Shown here one piece after another: positions 39,367 through 42,294 of a stretch of 42,294 nucleotides of DNA. This stretch comes from a virus, in IMG/VR virus record IMGVR_UViG_3300045931_000283, positions 1 to 42,294 of that record; one strand, 5' to 3'. A program made the translations under genes and the position numbers. The notes beneath the pieces were generated by a model. That model was not told where the DNA came from. It worked only from the letters and a program-made list of their open reading frames with translations, and ran no database searches. Numbering within the stretch: the stretch's first letter is position 1; each line of letters starts with the position of its first letter.

Positions 39367-39675
39367 ATGGGAAAATCAATCAGGGTGCAAGGATTGAAAA
39401 AGATGAAAATCGGTCTTGTCACAATCACAGATGATGATGATAATGAAATGTACTGCATTGGAGTAAAGCATAATCTACCAAGAAAAGCGTTTCAGTATTT
39501 TGTGAAGAACTATGGTAATTGCGTTCCGAACCAAGACCTGAGTTCCGATGAATTGGTTCGGTTGATTAATACCGCACCTGAAGACCTAAACTACAGGGCA
39601 GATTCTCTGACTGTAGATGACAAGATAATGATAGAGAAAACATTTGAACCTAATGTAGAAATAGTATGGAAATAA
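39367..39675 (+). CDS. Hypothetical protein (102 aa)
   Basis: The product opens MGKSIRVQGLKKMKIGLVTI, then TDDDDNEMYCIGV, and is alpha/beta with an acidic loop and a mixed C-terminus. It overlaps the SSB-like gene by 10 bp. Function unknown; context suggests recombination or replication. Confidence 0.55.
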   Translation: MGKSIRVQGLKKMKIGLVTITDDDDNEMYCIGVKHNLPRKAFQYFVKNYGNCVPNQDLSSDELVRLINTAPEDLNYRADSLTVDDKIMIEKTFEPNVEIVWK

Positions 39676-40088
39676 TAGGCTATATTAAAACAATTTTTCC
39701 TGAAACACAAGTGAGCGCATCATTCAGGAAAAGAGAGTTAGTGGTCAGCACTAACGAACAATATCCGCAGCATATCCTGATTGAATTCAACCAAGATAAG
39801 TGCGACATCCTAAACAGTTACGGTATTGGTGAGGAAGTGAAAGTTAGCATAAATATACGGGGCAGGGAATGGATTAATCCGCAGGGTGAGGTTAAATACT
39901 TCAACCAAATACAGGGATGGAGAATGGAAAGAGTTACTGATAACCAAAGTAATAATGGTAATACTGGTAATGCTAATAACAATAATAACAGAGCAAACAC
40001 AAGCAATACAGGTAATACAGGTAATACACAAACTCATAATGCAGTTCCTTTGAGTACAGAGGAAGAAGGAGATGATTTGCCATTTTAA
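39666..40088 (+). CDS. DUF3127/SSB-like single-strand-binding protein (140 aa)
   Basis: Residues 1-90 match the DUF3127 OB-fold pattern: MEIIGYIKTIFPETQVSASF, QYPQHILIEFNQDKCDIL and GEEVKVSINIRGREW, ending QGWRMERV. A long Asn/Gly/Thr linker follows (TGNTGN-type units), then the acidic tip EEGDDLPF, which mirrors the SSB C-terminal DDIPF used to recruit partners. This suggests it replaces a conventional SSB in the cassette. The acidic tip is a strong hint; DNA binding itself is inferred. Confidence 0.8.
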   Translation: MEIIGYIKTIFPETQVSASFRKRELVVSTNEQYPQHILIEFNQDKCDILNSYGIGEEVKVSINIRGREWINPQGEVKYFNQIQGWRMERVTDNQSNNGNTGNANNNNNRANTSNTGNTGNTQTHNAVPLSTEEEGDDLPF

Positions 40089-40109
40089 TTAAATAAATTT
40101 CATAATTAA

Positions 40110-40140
40110 TTTGGTATTCTAAATTATGATTGTATATTTG
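40110..40140 (+). promoter_or_regulatory. Promoter ahead of the candidate structured RNA, copy 6
   Basis: TTTG (40110-40113), 19 nt, then TATATTTG (40133-40140) followed by C. The upstream ATAATTAATTTGGTA resembles the early palindrome but is degraded. The predicted start point near 40147 lies a few bases ahead of the RNA described next. Confidence 0.75.
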
Positions 40141-40146
40141 CACTTG

Positions 40147-40250
40147 TAATGAGGTCAGAGCCATTGCAAAACATACCGAAAACATTATACAATCCCTATT
40201 CTTGAGTGCGCTCTGACATTTAGCACGATGGAATAGGGATTCTTTGTTTA
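40147..40250 (+). ncRNA. Candidate structured RNA with interleaved helices (pseudoknot)
   Basis: There is no open frame here. GTCAGAGC (40154-40161) pairs with GCTCTGAC (40210-40217), and AATCCCTATTC (40191-40201) pairs with GAATAGGGATT (40231-40241). The order A, B, A', B' is that of an H-type pseudoknot. A third helix, GTGC/GCAC (40206-40209 and 40223-40226), closes the inner loop. The second helix is followed by CTTTGTTTAA, a weak U-tract. The RNA starts within about 10 nt of the predicted promoter start. It may be a regulatory leader, a trans-acting small RNA or an antisense-type control. No known class was recognised. Confidence 0.65.
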
Positions 40251-40333
40251 ACAATTTTTAGTATCCTTATACTGATTTTCAGGTACTTACTTCCCCCACA
40301 AGTATCTTTTTCGATTGCCTAATAAATTACTTT

Positions 40334-40687
40334 ATGAAAACAATAGAAGAACTTCAATCAATCATTGATGCAAATCTCGACCTTATAAGAGTTGAATCCA
40401 AAACTATGAGGCAGAGTAAAAGAAACAGTCTTTTGCGTGAGAACGAAAAACTGGCTGAAATAATCAATTACTTAAAATGCAGTCCGAGTGAAAATTTCGT
40501 TTCTTCAGAGAAGGTACGACTTGAGAGAATTATTCACTCTAAAAACACACAATACCACTACTGGCTTGAAAACTGTTGCCCTAATGATGTGCCTGATAAA
40601 AGCAAGCGTACATTATTCAACAAGGAAACAGGTTTAGTTACACTTAAACGGCAGTTAAAAAACCTTAATTTAATTTTAGCGTTATGA
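40334..40687 (+). CDS. Hypothetical protein (117 aa)
   Basis: The product is helical and charged (MKTIEELQSIIDANLDLIRV...), with long amphipathic stretches and two adjacent Cys (LENCCPNDVP). It is the first gene downstream of the structured RNA, about 84 bp after it, and overlaps the next gene by 4 bp (ATGA). A role in replication control is possible but has no direct support. Confidence 0.55.
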   Translation: MKTIEELQSIIDANLDLIRVESKTMRQSKRNSLLRENEKLAEIINYLKCSPSENFVSSEKVRLERIIHSKNTQYHYWLENCCPNDVPDKSKRTLFNKETGLVTLKRQLKNLNLILAL

Positions 40688-40827: not shown

Positions 40828-40878
40828 TTTTTTTTATCTAATCTGTTGAACACATTCAACCAAACAAAAACGAATCTT

Positions 40879-41667
40879 ATGGATTATTTCAAAGTTATGC
40901 GAACCTTTTGGGATTTTGCGTTTGAAAACCCCGAAAAAATAAAACCGAACCATATTGCAATTTTTGCCTTTGCGGTGGAACATTGCAATCGTTTAGGATG
41001 GAAAGAAAAGTTTGGTTTTCCCACATCTATGGCTATGGAAGCCACAGGGATTAAAAGTTATTCTGTGTATAAGAAAAACTTAGATGATTTGATAAACTAT
41101 GGTTTGATTGATATAGTAGAATGGTCGAAGAACCAATGGTCAAGTAATATAATTGCTTTGAAAGAAAATTACAAAGCAAATGATGAAGCAAATTACAAAG
41201 CACTTGATACTGCTTTTGCCAAGCATAATGAAAATCATAGTGAAGAAGAAGTTGAAAAAGAAGATAGCTTTGAAAGATTATTACAAAGCAAATTAGAAAG
41301 CACCTATCAAAGCACCTATCAAAGCACCTGTCAAAGCACCTGTGAAAGCACCAGTAGTATAATAAAACAAAATACAAATAACAAATTACCAATTACTAAG
41401 GGCAAAAACCAAAAAATTGAAATTCCTGATTTTGCAGAATTCTTGGCTTTTGCTAAAAGCGAAGTTCCAAACGTCAATGAATATTCAGTCAAGGCAAAGT
41501 ATGAATCTTGGATTGAGAACAAATGGCACGATGGAAACAATTCGCCAATTATCCGATGGAAATCAAAACTTAGAAACACTTTGCCACATCTCAAAGTTGA
41601 TGCTTTGCCTGTGGATAAAATTATTTCGGCAAAAACAAATCAACGCTTAAATCTTTATCCCAAATAA
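40879..41667 (+). CDS. Phage replication initiator, O/DnaD-like (262 aa)
   Basis: I start at 40879 (MDYFKVMRTFWDFAFENPEK); a TTG at 40846 is the alternative. Residues about 20-95 form a winged helix (EKFGFPTSMAMEATGIKSYS, then VYKKNLDDLINYGLIDIVEW). A low-complexity linker with SxxQSxxQ repeats (about 140-160) follows, then a C-terminal DnaD-like region (ESWIENKWHDGNNSPIIRWK). Such proteins bind the origin and load the helicase. The linker is encoded by 12-bp tandem repeats that may themselves be the origin. It lies just upstream of the primase gene. Confidence 0.75.
   Translation: MDYFKVMRTFWDFAFENPEKIKPNHIAIFAFAVEHCNRLGWKEKFGFPTSMAMEATGIKSYSVYKKNLDDLINYGLIDIVEWSKNQWSSNIIALKENYKANDEANYKALDTAFAKHNENHSEEEVEKEDSFERLLQSKLESTYQSTYQSTCQSTCESTSSIIKQNTNNKLPITKGKNQKIEIPDFAEFLAFAKSEVPNVNEYSVKAKYESWIENKWHDGNNSPIIRWKSKLRNTLPHLKVDALPVDKIISAKTNQRLNLYPK
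41168..41355 (+). repeat. Iterons inside the initiator gene, candidate replication origin
   Basis: Five tandem 12-bp units of the form (G/C)AAAGCACC(T/A)(A/G)T run without gaps from 41296 to 41355. Three copies of ATTACAAAGCA lie just upstream (41168-41178, 41192-41202, 41280-41290). An AT-rich stretch (41356-41400) follows, like a DNA-unwinding element. In lambda-type phages the origin iterons are also within the initiator gene. No experiment can be read from the sequence, so the origin call is inference. Confidence 0.6.
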
Positions 41668-41812: not shown

Positions 41813-42294
41813 ATGAATCAAATAATAGCAGATTTGAATAGTCTTGGCATCAATTTGAAAAGCGATACCCGAAATGTTCAGAAAGTGAAATGCCCGAACT
41901 GTGCAACACTTGGAAAGAAGAATTTGAAAGACCCTTCACTTTTGGTAAACCTTCAGACAGGGGTTTACAAATGCTTTAAATGCGATTGGAAAGGGTGTGT
42001 TAAGAAACAAGAAAATTTCAGCAGAGAAGTGATACAGACATACAAGATACCGCAAAAACCAAATATCAGCAAACTGACTAATTATGCTTTGCAGTACTTC
42101 CAGTCAAGGGCTATTCCGCAGGAAATTTTAATCAAGAACCACATCGCATCATCAAGCGATGGGAAGAAGGTTATTTTCCCGTATATGAGAAACGGGGTTC
42201 TTGTGAATTTCAAGACCCGTAGTTTGGAAGAAAAGATATTTTATCAGGCTGCTGAGGCTGAACCGATTATGTTTAATCTTGACAGGATTTACGG
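41813..42294 (+). CDS. Primase-helicase, N-terminal part; runs off window end
   Basis: The product starts MNQIIADLNSLGINLKSDTR. It has a CHC2-type zinc ribbon with CPNC (about residue 27) and CFKCDWKG (about residue 54), which reads the primer start site, and then the beginning of the primase core (GKKVIFPYMRNGVLVNFKTR). It ends mid-codon after FNLDRIYG, just where a TOPRIM glutamate motif is expected; that motif (GEIDAL) is the first thing in the window. The gene is thus very likely the 5' part of the gene at position 1. Confidence 0.9.
   Translation, partial: MNQIIADLNSLGINLKSDTRNVQKVKCPNCATLGKKNLKDPSLLVNLQTGVYKCFKCDWKGCVKKQENFSREVIQTYKIPQKPNISKLTNYALQYFQSRAIPQEILIKNHIASSSDGKKVIFPYMRNGVLVNFKTRSLEEKIFYQAAEAEPIMFNLDRIY

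Follow-up and report, generated by a model that had tools for sequence, protein, structure and literature searches.

A kissing-hairpin RNA behind a Bacteroidota-type promoter in phages: a candidate leader attenuator of replication and other genes

The locus and the predicted fold

The window, meaning the whole 42,294-nt stretch of DNA that was analyzed, comprises IMG/VR virus record IMGVR_UViG_3300045931_000283 from position 1 to position 42,294. The genes, promoters, and RNA parts located below all lie on its plus strand. Toward the right end are a gene for a DUF3127 single-strand DNA-binding (SSB) protein (39666-40088; PF11325, E value of 2.5e-28; phrog_4932, E value of 6.6e-38), a 117-aa ORF for which no family was matched (40334-40687), a replication-initiator-like gene (40846-41667), and a DNA primase/helicase gene that is cut by the window end (41813-42292; phrog_47, E value of 2.7e-16). 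Other phages have relatives of the initiator-like gene immediately downstream of the RNA element described below, and their start matches the ATG at 40879 in the alignment; in L028, L021, L004, and L071, the RNA is found 12 to 20 nt 5' of this gene. The primase/helicase frame exits the right end of the window and an open frame (3-1328) opens the left end, as if the record were circularly permuted.

As the initial sequence-only reading had proposed, the gap between the DUF3127 gene and the 117-aa ORF (40089-40333) is free of genes and contains a promoter. This promoter is of the Bacteroidota type, TTTG-N19-TATATTTG at 40110-40140, and its −7 box, TAnnTTTG, accompanies the RNA in the homologues. 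Transcription in the window would be expected to start a few nucleotides after it, at about 40144-40148. Five window promoters (26814, 27473, 27717, 28913, and 40110) share an extended consensus around AATTAATTTGGTAATT...TAnnTTTG, and among them only the one at 40110 precedes a kissing-hairpin RNA.

The same reading had described 40147-40250 as two perfect helices of 8 and 11 bp, interleaved in the order A B A' B', with a 4-bp helix inside, and all three were found to be exact. The 8-bp helix joins gtcagagc (A, here K; 40154-40161) to gctctgac (A', here K'; 40210-40217), and the 11-bp, terminator-like stem joins aatccctattc (B, 40191-40201) to gaatagggatt (B', 40231-40241). The inner stem, gtgc (C, 40206-40209) with gcac (C', 40223-40226), closes the loop of the second hairpin, in which K' is located. 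That description had, however, missed a fourth helix, P1, which is indicated by both folding and covariation and moves the start of the element to about 40144. P1 is a 5' hairpin (40144-40169) in which 40144-40151 pairs with 40162-40169 around a loop of AG followed by GTCAGAGC; K is its apical loop, and the fold is therefore one of two hairpins kissing via their loops. Also overlooked was that B' runs into a U-rich tract, ttctttgttt (40240-40249), at a position where T is enriched across 57 members. Between the hairpins is an A-rich linker, GAAAACATTATA (40178-40189), which forms conserved columns in our alignment A3 and is similar in divergent members. The RNA would be about 100 nt long. No strand is shared between helices, and all of them can therefore coexist.

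The earlier judgment that the interleaving was unlikely to have arisen by chance was borne out, since none of 20,000 dinucleotide shuffles of the region produced two interleaved perfect helices with minimum lengths of 8 and 11 bp. Two interleaved perfect helices both of at least 8 bp were obtained in 7 of 5,000 shuffles. The nested part alone had a z score of −3.9, with none of 200 shuffles folding as well, and the duplex energies were about −12.6 kcal/mol for K:K' and −14.2 kcal/mol for B. With its 11-bp stem B and, family-wide, a U tract of about 8 nt, the element has the stem and U tract of an intrinsic terminator; in the window the tract is interrupted.

Two other assignments were considered and rejected. 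An HDV-like ribozyme fold would place P3 after the 5' strand of P2 and before the 3' strand of P1, whereas here the 3' strand of the interleaved helix lies inside C. An ATG in P1 of the window opens an 18-codon frame that might encode a leader peptide; this ATG is missing in L228 and L355, and in L101 it is followed by a near-immediate stop.

Homologous elements and covariation

Searches of the first fetched loci by blastn and nhmmer revealed related elements, several of which immediately follow a DUF3127 gene. A detector with the −7 box, P1, the kissing helix, B, and C as its criteria was then run on 243 loci. At a score of at least 32 it returned 57 matches, compared with 1.0 in dinucleotide shuffles, and at a score of at least 36 it returned 23, compared with 0; the window scored 39.0. 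A covariance model, R1, also scores divergent members such as L201, L004, L109, L009, and L028. The K:K' pairing was demanded by the searches that collected most of the members and played a part in how most of the metagenomic ones were found, a selection effect that the shuffle comparison and two further controls limit rather than remove.

For the first control, regions behind DUF3127 genes were picked by protein only, and a promoter was not required. The fold was present 50 to 90 nt after the gene in 9 of 37 such regions, including the window, with a score that no more than 1 in 40 shuffles of that region reached; a score of 28 was reached in 0.4% of all shuffles. L088 also has the fold, 254 nt after its DUF3127 gene. 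The second control was a scan of IMG/VR with a promoter-anchored pattern (TTTG plus the P1 stem) that left most of the loop free. An exact 7- to 8-nt downstream complement of the site's own loop occurred at 17 of 72 distinct sites, where about 1.5 were expected when downstream regions were swapped. L315, which is among the 17, sits in a different, GC-rich context and resembles a chance match. The TA of the −7 box, which was absent from the search pattern, was found at 15 of the 16 counted loop-complement sites compared with 4 of the 55 sites lacking a complement.

Several searches delimited the family. Direct blastn of the window element against phage records gave chance matches only, and elements of the L130 and L148 types had no match in phages, nor did the L130 type in plasmids. 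No credible member was seen in seven related cultured phages (Fpv5, Danklef_1, P12024L, phi18:3, phi13:2, Gundel_1, and FL-1), the last four of which were covered over 15 to 20 kb around the SSB gene. Sampling of 251 genomes from the family of G024 (Flavobacterium sp. ALJ2) yielded no real member, under the stricter filters that apply to more than 40 genomes and can lose weak matches. Matches of the covariance model in Flavobacteriaceae chromosomes were weak, lacked the kissing helix, and were rejected as resembling ordinary terminators. Rfam 15 gave no match at the gathering threshold in the window or in 18 homologous loci and gave chance-level matches only at E values up to 10.

Alignment A3, comprising 22 sequences and 29 pairs over the four helices, was used to assess covariation. 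Overall, 98.7% of its cells were paired, and double compensatory changes were present at 20 of the 29 pairs (99 cells). None of 500 shuffles reached any of five covariation measures, and sliding the partners by 1 to 3 columns lowered pairing to 34 to 44%. P1 was paired in all 22 sequences. The kissing helix was 100% paired with double changes at 6 of its 8 pairs, and double changes were also found at 8 of the 11 pairs of B and at all 4 pairs of C. RNAalifold recovered P1, B, and C when the structure was not supplied. Two cultured phages, hemulen6-1 and mumin6-1, have nearly identical elements except for the loop pair, which changes from GTGAGACG/CGTCTCAC to GTGGAACG/CGTTCCAC between them. The test that the sequence-only reading had proposed, covariation in related phages, was thus strongly positive for all four helices, in support of its suggestion that the element is a cis leader of the replication operon. 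No alternative, antiterminator-like helix with covariation was detected in A3; the 5' strand of P1 can pair with the linker (columns 17 to 22 with 55 to 60) in 15 of the 22 sequences, and this helix was rejected for showing zero covariation.

U·G pairs recurred at fixed positions of the plus strand (12 of 22 sequences at pair 70:109 and 7 of 22 at pair 18:37), as would be expected of an RNA made from that strand rather than of a DNA structure. The element adjoins replication genes and might in principle act as DNA, whether as an origin, a single-strand structure, or a protein site. We consider this very improbable given the strand-specific U·G pairs, the orientation fixed behind a promoter, the U tract on the same strand, and the copies that also precede homing endonuclease genes.

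Distribution and anatomy across members

Cultured Baltic Flavobacterium phages of hosts LMO6 and LMO9, a group described as lytic muminphages (PMC7077304), carry the element in 46 GenBank records, and it was also found in many metagenomic viral contigs. In the GenBank records looked at, it was either unannotated or lay under a small hypothetical ORF. There are one or two copies per record, and copies in one phage differ in their loop pairs, indicating that the pairing occurs within one molecule. The suggestion that it might be an antisense-type copy-number regulator was accordingly not upheld: each copy pairs with itself, the loop pairs differ within one phage, and nothing points to an RNA from the opposite strand.

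Among 57 distinct members, B ended about 98 nt past the end of the −7 box (10 to 90% range, 87 to 108). T made up 58 to 79% of positions +1 to +8 after the B stem and then dropped, against a background of about 30% upstream of other genes; the tract was weak in a few members, such as L229, and interrupted in L148. The upstream gene mostly ended 0 to 50 nt before the −7 box, and no second −7 box was found between the RNA and the start codon in 71 of 73 members. With no other promoter and an upstream gene that ends near the −7 box, the downstream gene would be reached only by read-through of the stem. Comparison of the sequences shows the structure, its orientation, its linkage to promoter and U tract, and its place before genes without another promoter.

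These features also bear on whether the element is a standalone phage small RNA that ends at the U tract and acts in trans, the adjoining gene being a bystander. The dedicated promoter, the compact and stable fold, the terminator-like end, and the constant length of about 100 nt would all suit such an RNA. If the RNA ended at the U tract, however, the next gene would have to be reached by read-through, since it is separated from the RNA by only a short spacer with no other −7 box. Furthermore, the loops are paired internally and differ between copies in one phage, and there is little conserved unpaired, seed-like sequence beyond the linker and the stretch that flanks the second loop. We therefore regard this explanation as doubtful.

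The next start codon lies 6 to 23 nt after the stem in 39 of the 57 members, a spacing that would also be compatible with a translational operator, in which a protein such as the neighboring SSB protein binds the pseudoknot and then covers the A+U-rich initiation region, as gp32 does in T4. A DUF3127 gene is indeed present 46 to 80 nt upstream of the element in the window and several other loci, of which L252 and L262 were found without using that gene, and the pseudoknot of T4 gene 32 mRNA provides a precedent: it is likewise in a phage leader linked to replication genes and is combined with an A+U-rich sequence that adjoins the start codon (PMC3014915). The T4 pseudoknot, however, controls the SSB gene itself and has a different topology, whereas in the present loci the RNA usually comes after the SSB gene, if there is one, and is followed by varying genes. 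The RNA follows the SSB gene in the window and in most SSB-linked loci; in L116, another copy precedes an AAA-SSB pair. In addition, the DUF3127 gene was often absent from the fetched locus, from which we conclude that the element is not tied to it, the spacing is loose in about a quarter of the members (41 to 53 nt in 12 and 92 nt in the window), and the conserved U tract is better suited to a terminator. A translational operator is accordingly unlikely in our estimate, although we place it next after attenuation, ahead of the standalone small RNA and, last of these, the antiterminator discussed below.

The products encoded downstream were diverse and included helicases of the ResIII/DEAD, PIF1, and UvrD types, DUF6291 and initiator-like proteins, a DUF3987/Prim-Pol protein, NUMOD4/HNH and GIY-YIG nucleases, and small unknown ORFs. 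This variety points to a general expression device rather than to autoregulation of one product. HNH/NUMOD4 and GIY-YIG homing endonuclease genes with their own promoter and kissing-hairpin leader were observed in L009, L013, L094, L096, L103, L109, L171, L275 (6442), and G001:27515.

A candidate attenuator and the nearest known RNAs

We propose that the element is a cis-acting, promoter-proximal leader with a conditional terminator, that is, an attenuator, a reading to which we give about an even chance on the strength of the sequence comparisons. In this model, a 5' leader of about 100 nt would be transcribed directly after the phage promoter and would fold into two hairpins locked by the 8-bp loop-loop helix, and the second hairpin together with the U tract would constitute an intrinsic terminator ahead of the replication operon. 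RNA polymerase would then either stop at the U tract, leaving a short RNA, or continue into the replication genes. The efficiency with which the terminator forms would most likely depend on the kissing fold, and read-through would be permitted by a factor, from phage or host, acting on that fold. Termination itself, regulated read-through, and the trigger for it are steps that we infer from this architecture. Since the helices coexist and have no covarying competitor, regulation would act on the whole kissing fold, for example through a bound factor, and not by two-state refolding.

Some features fit this attenuator model less well. An efficient terminator would be expected to have a shorter loop than that of the second hairpin, the next ORF in the window is farther away than in other members, and a classic two-state switch with a mutually exclusive antiterminator helix is not visible. 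Attenuators do not all contain such a helix, and its absence is compatible with membership of the class.

No description of such an RNA was found in the open-licence literature, and we know of no precedent for a fold of this kind as a phage cis leader RNA. The nearest published kinds each differ from it in at least one defining feature. Attenuators based on intrinsic terminators share the order of promoter, short leader, stem with U tract, and gene; here, nested within the terminator stem is a 4-bp stem, the loop of which kisses that of the 5' hairpin, and no alternative antiterminator helix was found. In the ColE1 RNA I/RNA II kissing complex, the hairpins have about 7 complementary loop bases. 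The loop complementarity is alike, whereas the two loops of the present element sit in one molecule. The STAXI motif is also a pseudoknot RNA near genes for DNA-binding or DNA-manipulating proteins, but it is tandemly repeated and often has UUCG loops (PMC2864571), in contrast to the single pseudoknot per site, with promoter and terminator and without an Rfam match, seen here.

The put RNA of phage HK022 is likewise a nascent phage leader that forms two hairpins immediately downstream of an early promoter, putL RNA being about 70 nt long (PMC9378689). By analogy, the nascent fold might bind RNA polymerase and render it resistant to later terminators, and its promoter-proximal position before diverse early genes, as two hairpins in one or two copies per phage, would be in keeping with this. 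However, put promotes read-through and, as described, has no terminator of its own (PMC9378689), whereas the present element conserves the loop-loop kissing and ends in its own terminator-like U tract. The small number of copies per phage and the other early promoters of the window, which lack the element, also argue against put-like antitermination, which we hold to be improbable.

The element is probably a widespread RNA switch in viruses of Bacteroidota-type bacteria that decides whether genes are read. Beyond this, it may represent an undescribed class of leader RNA, widespread among phages, whose kissing loops join within one molecule around an intrinsic terminator to serve as a portable on/off device for replication, recombination, and homing endonuclease genes under Bacteroidota-type promoters, although we would put the case for and against such a class at roughly equal weight. 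If correct, this would add a new structured-RNA family with strong covariation, with members in isolated lytic Flavobacterium phages as well as many metagenomic viruses. It raises the testable questions of how Bacteroidota phages, whose early gene control is little known, time their replication genes and of whether a kissing-loop fold can gate an intrinsic terminator. The occurrence of the element before homing endonuclease genes suggests a portable expression module.

Further structural features were noted in subsets of members. A variant class, represented by L093, L094, L095, L100, and L106 (4327), carries one more hairpin within the linker that joins P1 to B, and the base of its terminator stem is extended. 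In L009, L013, L028, L059, and L109, an internal loop beside the kissing loop, AGTA / GAA, resembles the bulged-G (loop E) motif. A second conserved element, AATAGTTTAT-GGTATCTTAAAACCT, with a possible AGGT/ACCT hairpin, was observed before the start codon, 10 to 50 nt past the stem, in L252, L262, L272, L347, L364, L394, L396, and others; at several of these loci a small ORF of about 70 aa, bearing the motif LDKSTAIKFAKTL, came next.
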